64,000 bases of DNA from Azonexus hydrophilus (GTDB taxonomy: Bacteria > Pseudomonadota > Gammaproteobacteria > Burkholderiales > Rhodocyclaceae). Positions within the stretch are counted from its first letter, which is position 1; each line of letters starts with the position of its first letter. The position numbers were made by a program, and so were the translations under genes. The stretch lies in NCBI RefSeq assembly GCF_905120355.1, contig NZ_CAJHOB010000006.1:1-64000 (forward strand), in the 5' to 3' direction. A model generated the notes under the pieces. That model was not told where the DNA came from, made no database searches, and worked only from the letters and a program-made list of their open reading frames with translations. This document shows, piece after piece, positions 18,049 to 39,201 of this stretch.

Positions 18049-18273
18049 TCAGGCTGCGGTCTTGCGACGCATGGCGCCGAATTTCTGGTTGAACTTCTCA
18101 ACACGACCGGCGGTGTCGACGATCTTCTGCTTGCCGGTGTAGAAGGGATGGCAGGCGGCGCAGACTTCGATGTGGAAGGCGTCCTTGGCCATGGTCGACT
18201 TGGTGGCGAAGGTGTTGCCACAGGAGCAGGTGACCTGCACTTCGTGGTAGTTCGGGTGGATTTCGGCTTTCAT
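18049..18273 (-). CDS. rpmE: 50S ribosomal protein L31
   Basis: A 74-residue L31 of the zinc-binding type: four cysteines at 16, 18, 38 and 41 (VTCSCGN and EVCAACH). The N-terminus [12 protein letters not shown] is characteristic. Because this form carries zinc, cells often also have a zinc-free paralogue used in zinc shortage; none is visible here. An AAAGGA ribosome-binding site precedes the ATG at 18273; the ATG six codons further up is rejected on that ground. Confidence 0.96.
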
Positions 18274-18494
18274 TTCATTTCCTTTAGTCAAGCGACCGGC
18301 GGTATTGGCCGATCTGGGAAGCGCGGGATTATCAATGATTTGCGGTCGCCGTGCAATGCCTGCTGCAGGTATTTTTATCGTTTTTTCTGGAAGACATCGG
18401 AAAGGTGCAGTTTTTTACTGTGCGGATGTTTTGGGTGAGGGTGGCCGTTTTGTCTCCGACCATGGCACCGGATGTGGGAGCACGGACTGGATCT

Positions 18495-18508
18495 TTGATG
18501 TCAATCAA
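18495..18508 (+). promoter_or_regulatory. FNR/DNR-type box upstream of receptor-ABC-nnrS operon
   Basis: TTGATGTCAATCAA is a perfect match to TTGATNNNNATCAA, the palindrome bound by FNR, ANR and the nitric-oxide regulators DNR/NnrR. If transcription starts at 18543 (TAGAGT -10 at 18531-18536), the box is centred at -41.5, the class II activating position. nnrS, a typical member of such regulons, is the last gene of the operon. Confidence 0.75.
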
Positions 18509-18510
18509 GG

Positions 18511-18525
18511 TGAGAATTGTTATCA
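18511..18525 (+). promoter_or_regulatory. Fur box upstream of receptor-ABC-nnrS operon
   Basis: TGAGAATTGTTATCA agrees with the 7-1-7 Fur consensus TGATAATNATTATCA at 12 of 14 fixed positions. It starts two bases after the FNR-like box and covers the promoter between -35 and -10, so bound Fur should block transcription when iron is plentiful. Confidence 0.75.
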
Positions 18526-18565
18526 TTAACTAGAGTCTGCTTTTCTTTGTTCAACACCTCACCGG

Positions 18566-18594
18566 CAAGCCAGCACGACGCCAGCCAGCCATGC
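18566..18594 (+). repeat. receptor-gene leader element, copy 1
   Basis: These 29 bases share 25 identities with 27381-27409, in front of the second TonB-dependent receptor gene. The core is GCCAGC, five bases, then GCCAGCCAG. A looser version sits before the third receptor gene (36896-36924). The element lies between the Fur box and the start codon, so it is probably transcribed. Confidence 0.5.
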
Positions 18595-18610
18595 TTTCCG
18601 GAGTTATTTC

Positions 18611-20683
18611 ATGGATCTGCCCCGTATTTCCCCGTTGGCGTTGGCGCTGTTATGCGTGTTCGCCCCTGTCCGTGCTGAAGAAGCGACGCTGGCCACAGTT
18701 AACGTCACCGCCAAGGGTTATGCCGCGGCGGATCTGGAAACGCCGGTCAGCACGTTGTCGCTCGATCGGGAAGAGATCGCACGGCGCGGCGCGGCCAACG
18801 TCGGCGATGCCTTGCGCGGCGAACCGGGGATCGCCGTTTCCAACGATAGCGCGCAGGGGCAGAACCCGGTCATCCGCGGCCTAGGCAAGGAAAGCATGGT
18901 GCTGCTGGTCGATGGCATGCGCTTCAATTCGGCGCAGCCGGCCGGTGCGATTGCCTCGTTCATGACGCTGGGTCTGGCGGAGCGCATCGAGGTGGTCAAA
19001 GGCGGGGCGTCGGTGTTGTACGGGACGGGGGCGCTCGGTGGCGCAATCAACGTGCTGATGCCGCAGGCGCGCTTCACGCCGGGCGTTGGCGTCAATGCCG
19101 GAGCCAGCTACGACAGTGTCAGCCAGGGCTGGCGTGGCACGGCGGTGATGAACGCCAGCGCGGGCGACCACGCGCTGATGCTGGGTGCGTCGCTGGCGCG
19201 CATCGACGATTACAAGTCGCCGGAAGGCCGCGTCAAGCGCACCGGTTACGATTCCGATGCCGTCATCGGCCAGTACCGCTTCCGCATCGACAGTCAGCAG
19301 CAGTTGCGCGTTTCAGCGCAATGGCACCGGGATGAAGATGTCTGGTACCCGGGTTCGACCCGCCCCATCAATCCGGCCAATCCGGCGGTTGGTACGAATA
19401 CCGTGCATTCGCCGAAACAGGAGCGCCGTCTGTACGAAGCGGGTTACAGCCGCAAGGGGGACGGGGCGGCGCCGTTCAATTTTGATGTGCGTGTCTATCG
19501 TCAGGAGATGGAGCGCAGCATCTACTCCTGGGCCAATCGCTTCAACCGTGACATGGTCACCAATGAGGTCACCTTCCGTACCGATGGCGTCGACGCCAAG
19601 GCGGATTGGTGGGTTCACCCGCAGCATCAGCTGGCGCTTGGTGTGAACGCCTGGAAAATGAGCGGTAATCCAGACCGGCGCATGAGTTCGCCGCCGGCAT
19701 TTCCAGCACCGGTGGTGAACAATCCGTTTCAGGATGCTGAAATTCGGGCGTTGGGTTTGTATCTGCAGGATGACATGCGTTTTGGCCAGCTCAATGTGCT
19801 TGCCGGTTTGCGCTGGGATCAGGTTGAGGGAAGTGCAAAAAGTATGAATCCCAATGCAGCCAATCCGGCGATGCGCCGTTTTTCCGGGCTGAAAGAGAAG
19901 GAAAGTGCCGTTTCCGGCAGTCTGGGGGCGATTTATGAAGTGGCGCCGCTGTTGCGTCCGTATGCCAGTTATGCCCGTGCCTTCCGTGCTCCCGGCATGC
20001 GCGAGCGTTTCGAATCCGGGCCACGGGGCGATGGTTACTATTACACCGGCAGTCCAGAGGTCGAGGCAGAGCAGGCGGATCAGTATGAAATCGGGATCAA
20101 GGGTGAGACCTCAGCGTTGAATTACCAAGTGTCCGCCTTTTACAACAAGATCGACAATTACCTCACCGGCCAGATCATGCCTGCCGCCACGACGCCGGCT
20201 TGTGCCGGGAATGCCTTCTGCAAGAAGACCGTCAACCTCGGCAGTGCGACGATCAAGGGTTTCGAGGCGAAAGTGGCCTGGCAGGTCAGCGGCAGTCACT
20301 GGCTGAACGCCAGCTACTCGCGCATTCGCGGCGAGAACGACGACATGAACGAGCCGCTGTTCCAGATGCCGGCAGATGAAGTCTCGCTTGGCTGGATCGG
20401 TCAGATCATGCCCGGCGTCAAGGGCGATTTCACGCTGCGCCTGGTCGATGAGCAGAAACGTGTCGCCACCCGCTTTACCAATGGTACGGAAAACCGTACG
20501 GCGGGGTTCGTCACCGCCGATCTGGGGGCAACCTGGCAGTTCGCGAAAAACCAGAGCCTGCGGCTGGCAGTCAGGAATATTGCCGACAAGACCTATCATG
20601 AGCATTTGAGCGAAGGGCTGTCCGGCAGCGAGATCAAGGCGCCGGGGCGTAATGTCCAGATTGCCTGGCGTGGCAGTTTCTGA
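18611..20683 (+). CDS. TonB-dependent outer-membrane receptor
   Basis: A 690-residue receptor: signal peptide (ALALLCVFAPVRA, about 20 residues), plug domain with NPVIRGLGKESMVLLVDGMRF and IEVVKGGASVLYGTGALGGAIN, then a 22-strand barrel ending in a C-terminal Phe. FRAPGMRERF and GSPEVEAEQ are like the conserved barrel blocks of FepA/HmuR-type heme and siderophore receptors, but I cannot name the ligand. The start at 18611 follows a CCGGAG ribosome-binding site. FNR-like and Fur-like boxes lie upstream, and an ABC transporter and nnrS follow. Confidence 0.9.
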   Translation: MDLPRISPLALALLCVFAPVRAEEATLATVNVTAKGYAAADLETPVSTLSLDREEIARRGAANVGDALRGEPGIAVSNDSAQGQNPVIRGLGKESMVLLVDGMRFNSAQPAGAIASFMTLGLAERIEVVKGGASVLYGTGALGGAINVLMPQARFTPGVGVNAGASYDSVSQGWRGTAVMNASAGDHALMLGASLARIDDYKSPEGRVKRTGYDSDAVIGQYRFRIDSQQQLRVSAQWHRDEDVWYPGSTRPINPANPAVGTNTVHSPKQERRLYEAGYSRKGDGAAPFNFDVRVYRQEMERSIYSWANRFNRDMVTNEVTFRTDGVDAKADWWVHPQHQLALGVNAWKMSGNPDRRMSSPPAFPAPVVNNPFQDAEIRALGLYLQDDMRFGQLNVLAGLRWDQVEGSAKSMNPNAANPAMRRFSGLKEKESAVSGSLGAIYEVAPLLRPYASYARAFRAPGMRERFESGPRGDGYYYTGSPEVEAEQADQYEIGIKGETSALNYQVSAFYNKIDNYLTGQIMPAATTPACAGNAFCKKTVNLGSATIKGFEAKVAWQVSGSHWLNASYSRIRGENDDMNEPLFQMPADEVSLGWIGQIMPGVKGDFTLRLVDEQKRVATRFTNGTENRTAGFVTADLGATWQFAKNQSLRLAVRNIADKTYHEHLSEGLSGSEIKAPGRNVQIAWRGSF

Positions 20684-20747: not shown

Positions 20748-21800
20748 ATGAAGTTGGCTTTTCTTGCCCGCTATATCGGGTTGTTGGCGGCATGTGTGGT
20801 GTCCGTCAGCGTCGGTGCGGCGGCTCCCGGAGCGGCCGCAACAGCGGCCTCTACCCCCGCCAGACTGCCGAAACTGACCTTGTCCGGTCCATTTGCCGCC
20901 GTCTCCTTTCCGCTCATCCACATGGTCGAAAGCGGCGCTTTGAAGGACGTGGCGGAAACGGTCGAGTTCGTACCCTGGAAAGATCCCGACCAGCTGCGCG
21001 TGCTGGCGCTGGACAGCAAGCAGCCGGCGGATTTCATTGCCATGCCGAGCAATGTCGCGGCCAACCTGTACAACCGCGGCGTGAAGCTCAAGCTCATCAA
21101 CATTTCCACCTGGGGCGTGCTGTGGCTGGTGTCGCGCGATCCCAAGCTGAAAACCCTGGCCGATTTCCAGGGCAAGGAAGTGCTGATGCCCTTCCGCGCC
21201 GACATGCCGGACATCGTGTTCCAGACGCTGGCCGCCAAGGCCGGGCTGGACCCGAAAAAGAATTTCCGCCTGCGCTACGTCGGCACTCCGCTCGATGCCA
21301 TGCAGTTGCTCATTGCCCGGCGGGCCGATCACGCGTTGCTGGCCGAGCCGGCCGTGTCGATGGCCCTGCGCAAGACCAAATCCTTCCCGGTCAGCCTGAT
21401 CGCGCCCGATTTATACCGCAGTGTCGATGTGCAGCAGGAATGGGGGCGGCTTTTGCGGCGTGAGGCGCGCATTCCACAGGCGGGGATCGTGGCGATGGGG
21501 AAGGTGCTTGCCCACCCGGCGCTGATCGAGCGTTTTCAGAAGGCCTATGCCGCCTCCCTGCGCTGGTGCGAGCAACAGCCGCAGGAGTGCGGTGCGCTGG
21601 TCGCCCGGCGGATCGATCTGCTGACGCCGGAAGCTGTCGCCGATTCGGTGCGCGTCGATAATGCCGTGTTCGTCACCGCCGCTGATGCGCAGCCCGAACT
21701 GACATATTTCTTTCAGCTCCTGTACGAGCGCCAGCCGGGTCTGATCGGCGGCAAACTGCCGGCGCCGGATTTCTACTATCACCCTGACTCCGCCCGATGA
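20748..21800 (+). CDS. ABC transporter periplasmic binding protein, NitT/TauT (NMT1) family
   Basis: A 350-residue secreted protein. The signal peptide (MKLAFLARYIGLLAACVVSVSVGAAA) is followed by an NMT1/SsuA-like fold: FPLIHMVESGALKD, PADFIAMPSNVAANLYNRG, LADFQGKEVLMPFRADMPD and LIARRADHALLAEPAV. The family binds nitrate, sulfonates, thiamine precursors or unknown small molecules. The ligand here is open, and the Fur control points to a metal complex or a heme-related compound. The start at 20748 follows GAGGAAGAGAG; an in-frame ATG at 20715 would spoil the signal peptide. The gene lies 64 bases after the receptor. Confidence 0.85.
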   Translation: MKLAFLARYIGLLAACVVSVSVGAAAPGAAATAASTPARLPKLTLSGPFAAVSFPLIHMVESGALKDVAETVEFVPWKDPDQLRVLALDSKQPADFIAMPSNVAANLYNRGVKLKLINISTWGVLWLVSRDPKLKTLADFQGKEVLMPFRADMPDIVFQTLAAKAGLDPKKNFRLRYVGTPLDAMQLLIARRADHALLAEPAVSMALRKTKSFPVSLIAPDLYRSVDVQQEWGRLLRREARIPQAGIVAMGKVLAHPALIERFQKAYAASLRWCEQQPQECGALVARRIDLLTPEAVADSVRVDNAVFVTAADAQPELTYFFQLLYERQPGLIGGKLPAPDFYYHPDSAR

Positions 21801-21840: not shown

Positions 21841-22650
21841 ATGAAACTCCTGCGCGCCTGGCTGGCCGGCATTCCGGCTTATCTGTGGAGCGGCTGGGGG
21901 GCGCTCGCCAGCCTCTTTCTCCTGCTCGCCGCCTGGGAAGCGGGAAGCGCCCTCTACGGCGCCTTGATCCTGCCCGATCCTCTGAGCGTGTTCGCCACCC
22001 TGGGCGACTTGCTGGGGAGTGGCGCGGCCTGGCCGGAACTCTTCGTCACCGCCCGCCGCGCGCTGATCGGTCTGGCGCTGGCGATTGCCGCGGGCAGCCT
22101 GCTCGGCATGCTGGCTGGGGTGTCGCTCACCGCCTCGATGATGGCGCGCCCGCTCGTCACCGTGCTGCTCGGCACGCCGCCGATTGCCTGGCTGGTGCTG
22201 GCGATGCTGTGGTTCGGCGCGAGCGACGGCACGCCGGTATTCACCGTGTTCATCGCCTGTTTTCCGGTGATTTTCGTCGGCGCGCTGCAAGGCACGCGCA
22301 CCCTGGACGGGCAGTTGAAGGACATGGCGACGGTGTTCCGCTTGCCGGCGCGCATGAAATTCTTCGACCTCTACCTGCCGCACGTCATTTCCTACCTGTT
22401 TCCGGCCTGGATTACGGCGCTCGGCACGTCGTGGAAGGTGGTGGTGATGGCCGAATTGCTGTCGTCCGCCGACGGCGTCGGCGCGGCGCTGGCGGTGAGC
22501 CGCTCGCAACTGGACACAGCCGCGACGCTGGCCTGGATCGCCGCCGTGGTGCTGGCCCTGCTGGCGGTGGAATATCTCTTTCTGGAGCCGATCAAGCGCG
22601 AACTCGAACGCTGGCGCAGCCAGGAAGGCGGCGGGGAGCGGATGCGATGA
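21841..22650 (+). CDS. ABC transporter permease, NitT/TauT type
   Basis: A 269-residue inner-membrane permease with about six hydrophobic segments and the cytoplasmic EAA-like loop (GTRTLDGQLKDMATVFRLPA, about residues 150-170). It resembles SsuC/TauC. It should form the channel with the ATPase, whose start overlaps its stop (ATGA), and take the ligand from the binding protein encoded 40 bases upstream. Confidence 0.88.
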   Translation: MKLLRAWLAGIPAYLWSGWGALASLFLLLAAWEAGSALYGALILPDPLSVFATLGDLLGSGAAWPELFVTARRALIGLALAIAAGSLLGMLAGVSLTASMMARPLVTVLLGTPPIAWLVLAMLWFGASDGTPVFTVFIACFPVIFVGALQGTRTLDGQLKDMATVFRLPARMKFFDLYLPHVISYLFPAWITALGTSWKVVVMAELLSSADGVGAALAVSRSQLDTAATLAWIAAVVLALLAVEYLFLEPIKRELERWRSQEGGGERMR

Positions 22651-23486
22651 GTCAGGCGCTGGAAATCCGTGGCTTGAGCCACAGCTATCCGCCGCGTACG
22701 GTGCTGGAAGATATTGAATTCAGCGTCCCGGCCGGGCGCACGGTGGCGCTGGTCGGGCCTTCCGGCTGCGGCAAGACCACCTTGCTGCACCTGTGCGCCG
22801 GTCTGTTGAGCGTGCAGAAAGGCGCGCTCGGCAATCCTTTCGAGCGTTCGGCGGTGATGTTCCAGCAGCCGCGCCTGTTGCCCTGGAAAACTACACAGGA
22901 CAACATCGCGCTCGGCTTGCAGGCGCTCGGCGTGCCGGTGGTAGAGCGTTTGGACAGGGCGAAAGCGCTGGCCGAGGCGGTGGGGCTGGATGCGCTGGCG
23001 CTCGGCCAGTTTCCGCACGAACTGTCCGGCGGCATGCAGAGCCGGGCGGCGCTGGCTCGGGCGTTGGTGCTGGCGCCCGATCTGCTGCTGATGGACGAGC
23101 CGTTCTCGGCGCTCGACATCGGCCTGAAACAGCAACTGCATCGCCTGCTGCTCGAACATCAGGCGGCGCACGGGCTGACAGTGCTGATGATTACCCACGA
23201 CCTGATGGAAGCGGTGCGGCTGGCCGACAGCATTCTCGTCATGGCGGCAGAGCCGGGGCGCATCGTGCATCGCCTGGAATTGCAGCAACCGGCCCGCCTG
23301 CGCAGCGATGCCGAGGTGTACCGCCTGACCGCCGAATTTCTGCAGCACCCGGCGGTGTGCGCGAGCTTCGACATTCTGCCGCCGCAGCTTGGGGCGGCGC
23401 AGGTGCGGTCGACGCAAATCGAGTCGACGCAAATGCAGGTGACACAGCAGACGCCATTGACGCCGCCGCAGGAGCGCCGGACATGA
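22647..23486 (+). CDS. ABC transporter ATP-binding protein, NitT/TauT type
   Basis: A 279-residue ATPase. Walker A GPSGCGKTT, Q-loop FQQPRLLPW, signature LSGGMQSR, Walker B LLLMDEP and switch His MITHD are all intact. The last 40 residues form a polar tail rich in Gln and Thr. There a 12-base unit occurs twice (23408-23419 and 23423-23434), giving repeated STQ. Start and stop both overlap the neighbours as ATGA-type junctions, so permease, ATPase and nnrS are translated together. Confidence 0.9.
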   Translation: MSQALEIRGLSHSYPPRTVLEDIEFSVPAGRTVALVGPSGCGKTTLLHLCAGLLSVQKGALGNPFERSAVMFQQPRLLPWKTTQDNIALGLQALGVPVVERLDRAKALAEAVGLDALALGQFPHELSGGMQSRAALARALVLAPDLLLMDEPFSALDIGLKQQLHRLLLEHQAAHGLTVLMITHDLMEAVRLADSILVMAAEPGRIVHRLELQQPARLRSDAEVYRLTAEFLQHPAVCASFDILPPQLGAAQVRSTQIESTQMQVTQQTPLTPPQERRT

Positions 23487-24739
23487 TGAAAATGCAGCTG
23501 CGAATGTATTTGCCAAGCGCCCCCGTCTGGATGTGCGGTTTCCGCTCCTTTTTCCTGGCCTCGGCGGGCATGGCCGTGGCCTTGCTCGGCTGGTGGGTGC
23601 TGTTTCTCCTGACCGGCGGCGCGCTGCCGGTGCCGCAGGTGCCGGGCGGGCCGTTCATCTGGCACGCGCATGAGCTGATTTTCGGCTTTGCCCTGGCGGC
23701 GCTGGCCGGTTTCGCGTTGACCGCTTTCCCGGAATTCACCGATACGCCGAGCATCGCACCGTGCACGGTGCGCCGGCTGTTCGGGCTGTGGCTGCTCGGG
23801 CGGCTGGGCTTCTGGTTGTCCGGGCTGCTCGGCGCGCCGGCGCTGGCCTTGTCCGGGGCGGCGCATCTGGCCTTGCTCGGCGGGCTGCTTTATCTGCTGG
23901 CCCCGCGTCTTTTCGCCGCGCCGGACCGACGGCACATTTCCTTCGCCTGGGCCTTGCTGGCGCTGGCCGGCGTGGTGGCGGGCTTCTATGTCGACGCTCT
24001 GCGCGACGAGCCGCCGGGGCGCTGGCTGCATGTCGCCCTGGGCCTGTTCATGATTTTCATCGTGCTTGCCATGAGCCGGATTTCCATGCGCATCATGAAC
24101 GACGCGCTGAACGAGGAAGCCGCCCGGCGCGGCGAGGCGGCGGATACCGTGTATCGCGCCCGCCCGCCCAAGCGCAATCTCGCCATCGTCTGCATCGCCG
24201 CCTATACCGCCGCTGAATTCTTCCTGCCCGGCAACCGTCTGGGCGGCTGGCTGGCGCTGGCAGCCATGGCGGCACTGTTGCATCTGCAGAGCGACTGGCA
24301 CCTTGGCCGTGCTTTGTTGCGCCGTTGGCCGTTGATCCTGTTTTCGGTGTACTGCTTGATGGCGGCAGGTTATGCCCTGATCGGCTGGGACCTGTTGCTG
24401 GCCAGCGGTACATTTTCTGCCGGGCGTCACCTGCTGACCGTGGGGGGGCTGGGGATTGCCGTCTACGCTGTGTTGAATATTGCCGGGCGCATTCATAGCG
24501 GTCATCCGCTCGAGCGACGCGCCTGGGTGCCGATTGGCGCTGCGGCGCTGGTGTTGGGGGCGCTGCTGCGCGCCGCCAGTGCCTGGCCGGTGCTGCCGGC
24601 CGGGGTGGTGTGGGGCGCGTCCGGTGCCTGCTGGGCTCTGGCCTACGCGCTCTGGCTATGGCACATGTTCCCCATTCTGAGCACGGCGCGTAGCGATGGC
24701 GGGACGGAGTGCGAGGAAATTCTTACGCCGCAGGAGTGA
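23483..24739 (+). CDS. nnrS: NnrS family protein
   Basis: A 418-residue membrane protein with about twelve hydrophobic segments. WHAHELIFGFALAALAGFALTAFPEFT is the NnrS signature, whose histidines are thought to bind heme and copper. In other bacteria NnrS is made under FNR/NnrR control during denitrification and protects against nitric-oxide damage to iron metabolism. Here it ends an operon with a TonB-dependent receptor and an ABC transporter, behind an FNR-like and a Fur-like box. The start ATG at 23483 overlaps the ATPase stop. Confidence 0.88.
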   Translation: MMKMQLRMYLPSAPVWMCGFRSFFLASAGMAVALLGWWVLFLLTGGALPVPQVPGGPFIWHAHELIFGFALAALAGFALTAFPEFTDTPSIAPCTVRRLFGLWLLGRLGFWLSGLLGAPALALSGAAHLALLGGLLYLLAPRLFAAPDRRHISFAWALLALAGVVAGFYVDALRDEPPGRWLHVALGLFMIFIVLAMSRISMRIMNDALNEEAARRGEAADTVYRARPPKRNLAIVCIAAYTAAEFFLPGNRLGGWLALAAMAALLHLQSDWHLGRALLRRWPLILFSVYCLMAAGYALIGWDLLLASGTFSAGRHLLTVGGLGIAVYAVLNIAGRIHSGHPLERRAWVPIGAAALVLGALLRAASAWPVLPAGVVWGASGACWALAYALWLWHMFPILSTARSDGGTECEEILTPQE

Positions 24740-27374: not shown

Positions 27375-27380
27375 TTCTGA

Positions 27381-27409
27381 CAAGCCAGCCCAACGCCAGC
27401 CAGTTATGC
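27381..27409 (+). repeat. receptor-gene leader element, copy 2
   Basis: 25 of 29 bases are identical to 18566-18594, including GCCAGC-N5-GCCAGCCAG and a following ATGC. Here it is 207 bases from the start codon, unlike copy 1 (16 bases), so a fixed distance to the gene is not needed for whatever it does. Confidence 0.5.
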
Positions 27410-39159: not shown

Positions 39160-39182
39160 TATATAAATAAGAACCATTGTCA
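39160..39182 (-). promoter_or_regulatory. hemP promoter -10 and Fur-like box
   Basis: On the minus strand, TGACAATGGTTCTTA (39182-39168) matches the 7-1-7 Fur consensus at 10 of 14 fixed positions. TATATA (39165-39160) is the -10, with start expected near 39153. Fur bound here would cover the space between -35 and -10. Confidence 0.6.
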
Positions 39183-39187
39183 ATAAC

Positions 39188-39201
39188 TTGATCTAGATCA
39201 A
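39188..39201 (-). promoter_or_regulatory. FNR/DNR-type box upstream of hemP-tonB-exbBD
   Basis: TTGATCTAGATCAA is a perfect TTGATNNNNATCAA site inside an 18-bp perfect palindrome (39186-39203). Its centre at 39194.5 is 41.5 bases upstream of the start predicted from the TATATA -10, the class II position where FNR-family proteins activate. Confidence 0.78.

Follow-up and report, generated by a model that had tools for sequence, protein, structure and literature searches.

The window analyzed here, a 64,000-nucleotide (64-kb) stretch of an Azonexus hydrophilus genome, contains a five-gene operon on the forward strand. The first gene encodes a TonB-dependent receptor (18611–20683), whose ATG start codon at 18611 was read directly from the sequence. 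It is followed by genes for a periplasmic SsuA/NMT1-like substrate-binding protein (20748–21800, start codon picked by eye), an ABC permease (BPD_transp_1, 21841–22650), an ABC ATPase (22647–23486), and NnrS (23483–24739), the start codons of the last two each overlapping the preceding stop codon in an ATGA. Pfam profiles matched a TonB receptor plug and barrel, an NMT1-like binding protein, a BPD permease, an ABC ATPase, and NnrS (PF05940, 260.8 bits). The receptor/ABC/NnrS operon proposed in the original prediction was confirmed.

Gene order was surveyed at 14 loci, comprising the best 13 NnrS matches in other genomes (100 searched) and the second NnrS of the same genome. The order receptor–binding protein–permease–ATPase–NnrS was complete at ten of them, each in a congener. 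The remaining loci comprised one on a contig that was too short, two with the last four genes and no adjoining receptor, and the second NnrS (contig C12), alongside which no such operon was found. The receptor was detected at E ≤ 1e-100 in nine of 60 sampled genomes, own genome included, and the named orthologues include those of Azonexus hydrophilus, A. fungiphilus, Dechloromonas denitrificans, D. hortensis, D. agitata, Rhodoferax antarcticus, and Azoarcus taiwanensis.

The substrate of the system was approached through the receptor and the binding protein. The receptor was closest to the heme-receptor family, with a score of 283.5 bits against the curated cut-off of 316.85 for heme/hemoglobin receptors (TIGR01785), and heme was set aside as a substrate call for this reason. 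The predicted model of the binding protein (mean pLDDT 75.8) had 3hn0 and the PQQ-binding protein PqqT (9b1v; compared with the protein encoded at 20748–21797) as its closest PDB folds, followed by thiamin, taurine, and sulfonate binders. These folds were not decisive for a substrate, and PQQ-like cofactors or metallophores are candidates worth testing. An iron-related compound is likely, because the operon has a Fur box and a leader common to iron genes, while NnrS presumably ties the operon to nitric oxide (NO).

Upstream of the receptor gene, all elements of the predicted promoter were found at their claimed coordinates when the sequence was re-read. The conserved FNR/DNR-type box TTGATGTCAATCAA occupies 18495–18508, and the Fur box TGAGAATTGTTATCA occupies 18511–18525 (neither was assigned a strand); the latter agrees with TGATAATNATTATCA at 12 of 14 scored positions, i.e., with two mismatches. 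A weak -10 hexamer, TAGAGT (18531–18536, + strand), matches TATAAT at four of six positions. A start 7 nt past this hexamer would lie at 18543 (+ strand), which agrees with the claimed start and with the claimed box center of -41.5 computed from it; the Fur box would then cover about -32 to -18, and the transcript leader would measure about 68 nt. Relative to this predicted start, a TTGAT-N4-ATCAA-type box is found near -41.5, as in class II FNR/DNR promoters, and a Fur box lies across the core promoter in a genome that encodes Fur, the arrangement looked for in Fur repression. A Shine-Dalgarno sequence, GGAG, was read directly at 18600–18603 (+ strand) and aligned across orthologous promoters.

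Both boxes were rare. Exact TTGATNNNNATCAA was found at seven places in the 2,882,318-base (2.88-Mb) genome, compared with none for the reversed control pattern, and two of the seven fall inside the 64-kb window. The Fur box at 18511–18525 was the only one in the window with at most two mismatches, and the mean in 20 mononucleotide shuffles of the window was 0.0. The genome scan for FNR-type boxes with a Fur box nearby, which the original prediction had proposed as a check, was carried out: only one of the seven sites, that at 18495, had a Fur box with at most three mismatches within 60 nt. The site at 39188 had a Fur-like box with four mismatches 5 nt away, and an AT-rich site at C18:39739 had two four-mismatch Fur matches, both overlapping the site itself. 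At the remaining four, no Fur-like box with up to four mismatches was found within 60 nt. The five sites outside the window were L001, L004, L005, L006, and L007, and that of L004 lies upstream of a cytochrome c-like ORF with a TATAAT downstream.

Conservation was evaluated in 23 upstream regions of the orthologous receptor gene, from the window and 22 relatives, a number that overstates independence, as the set holds the near-duplicates L045/L046 and L180/L181. In each promoter, the best Fur-like 15-mer was picked blind to the FNR-type site, and TTGA-N6-TCAA with at most one mismatch was then scored. This site stood ahead of the Fur-like box in 18 of the 23 promoters, at a gap of 2 nt in 15, 1 nt in two, and 0 nt in one. 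At all other offsets from -60 to +99 the count never exceeded two, and in 500 dinucleotide shuffles of the 80 nt upstream the expectation at gap 2 was a mean of 0.01 with a maximum of 1. The Fur-like boxes had two to five mismatches. The best -10-like hexamer located 2–8 nt past the Fur box had at most two mismatches to TATAAT in 22 of the 23 promoters, and its offset was 5 in 19. The FNR-site test was failed by five promoters, namely L177 from Rhodoferax antarcticus (3 mismatches), L178 (2), L183 (4), L184 (2), and L188 (5), among which L183 and L184 also had poor Fur-like boxes (5 mismatches).

Because box and spacing are kept in 18 of 23 orthologous promoters, a chance origin of the FNR-Fur arrangement appears very unlikely. 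The box had been called perfect, and at 18495 it is exact; this perfection is partly species-specific, as most relatives keeping the site have TTGA-N6-TCAA with one mismatch. The earlier conclusion against chance was upheld by the orthologous promoters rather than by the second operon on which it had relied. That operon, on the minus strand, was said to have the same plan. Its box at 39188–39201, TTGATCTAGATCAA, is fully palindromic, and the Fur-like box at 39168–39182 has four mismatches and a 5-nt gap. The genes behind it are labeled, most of them tentatively, as hemP-like, tonB, exbB, exbD, a TonB receptor, thioredoxin-like, and feoB. The relatives' hemP-tonB promoters numbered 24 (25 loci minus the window's own, drawn from the 35 of 59 other genomes with a match). 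Fur-like boxes with at most five mismatches were found in all 24, and in none of them did TTGA-N6-TCAA with at most one mismatch occur in the 40 nt preceding any Fur-like box. The shared plan did not hold, and this operon was dropped as independent support.

Seven HTH_Crp_2 matches above the cut-off were obtained in the genome. One of these regulators, L208, has Cys20/23/29/122 and the helix ETVSR, which we take to be the FNR pattern, so that an FNR-family regulator is encoded. Three further CRP/FNR-family proteins (L210, L211, and L212) have an EHFSR recognition helix, which presumably marks them as DNR-type. Two Fur-family proteins are also encoded.

The best-conserved part of the promoter region, missed in the earlier reading, is a leader element. 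In the 14 of 23 promoters that were aligned, the best-conserved non-coding block was GGCAAGCCAGC-spacer-GCCAGCCAGCC, located between the predicted start and the Shine-Dalgarno sequence, and its conservation exceeded that of both promoter boxes, FNR-type and Fur. In the window, the best-conserved columns correspond to GGC-AAGCCAGC-ACGAC-GCCAGCCA-GCC (18564–18590, + strand), a candidate hairpin with a conserved A/C-mismatch core. In 22 of the 23 promoters, at least two GCCAGC repeats lay 3' of the Fur box. The exceptions to the usual form were L186 (both repeats in the second half only), L183 (halves about 41 nt apart), and L188 (none). A second copy, GAC-AAGCCAGC-CCAAC-GCCAGCCA-GTT (27379–27405, + strand), lies 3' of a Fur-like sequence and is followed at about 240 nt by a TonB receptor ORF; the outer stem of this copy, GAC/GTT, is changed and can still pair, with one G-U.

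The distribution of the leader was determined in 60 genomes (own genome, 35 congeners, and 24 others of the order). The looser pattern AAGCCAGC-N2-9-GCCAGCC matched in 44 of them, with far fewer matches of the reversed control, and 80 stretches were then retrieved. In the DNA collected, AAGCCAGC-N2-9-GCCAGCCAG occurred at 66 distinct places: nine before the receptor of the NnrS operon, 19 before bacterioferritin, two before P19-type genes, 28 others, and eight judged by eye to be coding. Three of the 28 others had no ORF start (at least 90 aa) within 110 nt; all five downstream ORFs tested with Pfam (L063, L085, L161, L041, and L102) were TonB receptors, and most of the remaining ORFs had a similar-looking N-terminus. 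Single representatives of the bacterioferritin and P19 groups matched Pfam Ferritin and Iron_transport, respectively. Looser variants, outside the 66, were found before FTR1 (L100) and before a DUF2325 gene (L040). The latter gene lies directly past NnrS in A. hydrophilus, and its leader (about 2627–2690 of L040, - strand) combines a Fur-like sequence with AAGCCAGC repeats.

Beyond the genus, the element was matched at 29 places in 26 of 297 genomes, compared with seven reversed-control places in the same 300. Among the 27 that were inspected, four were leaders, in four other Burkholderiales families, and 23 looked coding or were without assignment. The four precede one bacterioferritin-like gene and three TonB receptors, and in L238 and L242 the outer stem has just 2 bp. 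Leader copies share the direction of the downstream gene. A separate locus, L280 (G000:C4:115855-115886, - strand), has a Fur-box-like sequence and then a leader variant in which GCCAGCC and GCCAGCCAGC are the repeats, preceding a small ORF (MESVTLPF...) that had no Pfam match.

For the receptor set, RNAalifold predicted the pairings GGC/GCC, GC/GC, and GC/GC, with A/C mismatches between them. No covariation was found within this receptor-operon alignment, because the paired columns never vary. Single-sequence folding energy was no better than in shuffles for four of five leaders, the fifth, L107, reaching a z of -2.0. Stems were scored by class in 61 leaders (58 pattern matches and L177, L182, and L187). 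An outer stem of at least 3 bp was present in 58 of the 61, compared with one of eight coding controls, where the search pattern itself fixes the first 3' base of this stem in 58 of the 61. By class, it was present in 12/12 NnrS-operon receptor, 27/28 TonB-receptor group, 19/19 bacterioferritin, and 0/2 P19 leaders. Outer pair 3 was paired in 58 of 61 leaders, compared with 52.6 when shuffled (0 of 5000), and was maintained through substitutions, for example to A-U or C-G. Pair 2 was weak (59 compared with 58.0, 154 of 5000), pair 1 was uninformative, and pairs 4 and 5 were unsupported in the 61 leaders (741 and 4142 of 5000, respectively). In L232, from outside the genus, the stem is GCAC/GTGC and compensatory.

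The repeat spacing ranged from 4 to 9 nt and varied with gene class. In 23 TonB-receptor leaders (five of the 28, L040, L043, L063, L102, and L104, had no nearby start and were dropped), the spacer paired with its own Shine-Dalgarno region at a mean of -8.73 kcal/mol, compared with -5.99 kcal/mol for those of others (0 of 5000). The result held with one leader per distinct spacer (n = 15, 0 of 5000). In L085, L143, L107, L149, and similar TonB-receptor leaders, the spacer showed complementarity to either the ribosome-binding site or the start codon, with which it co-varied. As a general property this pairing was rejected, with 3086 of 5000 for bacterioferritin (18 leaders) and 4666 of 5000 for the NnrS operon (9), in a permutation that has little power where the Shine-Dalgarno sequence is uniform and that ignores kinship. 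Taken together, the sequences suggest a hairpin and, in one TonB-receptor class, a pseudoknot of the H type that involves the ribosome-binding site; the structure is called a candidate because the pair counts are sequences, not events.

A leader peptide was rejected, as no shared reading frame is compatible with repeat spacings of 4, 5, 6, 7, 8, and 9 nt. A search of 4227 Rfam models returned one chance-level match (E 4.7) at 18200–18800 of the window and nothing at E ≤ 1 at ten other leader loci, and the NrrF model had no match over its cut-off in 21 genomes. Inspection of 30 of the 39 places with tandem GGCTGGC in the genome itself revealed no clear small RNA acting in trans; as a by-product, one further leader-like site with a Fur-like box ahead was found on contig C4.

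We consider it probable that the locus combines an AND-type promoter with a leader, i.e., that it is an FNR/DNR-activated, Fur-repressed five-gene operon with a conserved leader. This appears the best reading of the promoter, as originally proposed, because the box-Fur spacing and the -10 position are conserved in most of the 23 promoters, and the sites and the five-gene operon are real. RNA polymerase would be recruited in the class II manner by an activator of the FNR family bound at -41.5, either FNR itself, a DNR-like paralogue that responds to NO, or both, and Fe-Fur, between the activator site and the -10 hexamer, would block the polymerase. Because the two sites combine, the operon would be expressed under low oxygen (or NO) together with iron shortage. 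The transcript leader, from start site to start codon, would add a probable post-transcriptional layer common to bacterioferritin and other iron genes, and NnrS on the same transcript would connect uptake with NO stress. Read in the sequence itself were the sites with their spacing and conservation, the operon, the genes for the regulators, and the leader; from these we infer that the regulators bind, in which direction they act, where transcription starts, that the leader works as RNA, and what kind of substrate is taken up.

The main reader of the box could instead be a DNR/NNR-type NO sensor rather than FNR, in which case this would be an NO-stress operon with NnrS as its core gene. Three EHFSR-helix proteins are encoded, NnrS is the last gene of the operon, and the relatives' boxes are often not symmetrical and TTGAC-N4-ATCAA-like, presumably the type used by EHFSR/DNR-type proteins. 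However, FNR and DNR boxes overlap, and because the four-cysteine FNR is encoded as well as DNR-like proteins, the sequence of the box cannot separate an oxygen from an NO signal; we hold this alternative to be possible, with somewhat more doubt than belief. Far less probable is that the box is a chance palindrome and Fur the sole actor. L177 and L184 do keep a Fur-like box and the leader without an FNR box, and the 39188 box is not conserved, but such an accident would have to be repeated near the same spacing in 18 of 23 orthologues, where shuffles gave a mean of just 0.01 at gap 2, with a box present exactly only seven times in the genome.

For the leader, the alternative to RNA is that a further transcription factor binds the DNA just past the start site. 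The shared orientation of leader copies with the downstream gene and the resemblance of the repeats to a direct-repeat operator would fit such a site. It is rendered unlikely by the repeat spacing, which differs by gene class, by the compensatory outer stem position, likewise seen in L232, and by the spacer of TonB-receptor leaders, which covaries with the Shine-Dalgarno region and for which RNA pairing is the simplest explanation. Read as RNA, GGC-AAGCCAGC-loop-GCCAGCCA-GCC may represent a new cis-acting class at Burkholderiales iron genes (TonB receptors, bacterioferritin, and, more loosely, P19), a proposal we see about equal reason to accept and to doubt. It would consist of a mismatched hairpin core with an exchangeable loop, which in one TonB-receptor class would form an H-type pseudoknot with the Shine-Dalgarno sequence and close translation. 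Uptake and storage would then be tuned together, atop Fur and FNR, by whatever binds the invariant core, be it a metal, a metabolite, a protein, or a small RNA.

The Azonexus/Dechloromonas group is known for denitrifiers and perchlorate reducers. The promoter would be a clean, conserved case of AND-type logic, in which low oxygen or NO has to coincide with a lack of iron, in control of an NnrS-bearing uptake system, and a link between NO, oxygen, and iron shortage thereby becomes testable in this group. The leader is the larger prize, being short, near-invariant, placed before both uptake and storage genes, and equipped with spacers specific to gene class; should it act as RNA, it would add a further, new layer to the control of iron.

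Among the open PMC matches listed, which do not prove absence, no prior description of the leader or of a Fur-controlled receptor/ABC/NnrS operon was found. Like riboswitch-like leaders and the targets of NrrF-type Fur sRNAs, the leader is a short conserved element before iron genes and near the ribosome-binding site; unlike them, it has no credible Rfam match, nor was NrrF found over the cut-off in the 21 genomes. The binding protein shares its best PDB folds with PqqT and SsuA/TauA-type binders in the predicted model, whereas its identity to the first five PDB matches is just 18–23%. Within the NnrS family (PF05940), the Azonexus protein is set apart by ending a TonB-receptor/ABC operon behind a Fur box; one report (PMC9409073) discusses the Paracoccus NnrS, at the nar locus, as a protein of heme and copper. 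For E. coli, another report (PMC3688515) describes FNR activation masked by Fur repression at feoABC and proposes nine more operons of this kind ("Category 4"). The Azonexus promoter resembles these, as FNR activation is proposed there to be masked by Fur at iron-uptake promoters. It differs in that the sites are 2 nt apart with class II spacing kept in most orthologues, and in that the operon encodes a receptor, an SsuA-like ABC system, and NnrS behind a conserved leader. Judged by its sites, the promoter alone joins the known FNR-activated, Fur-masked type, to which it adds a strict conserved spacing, and the leader may be the new part.
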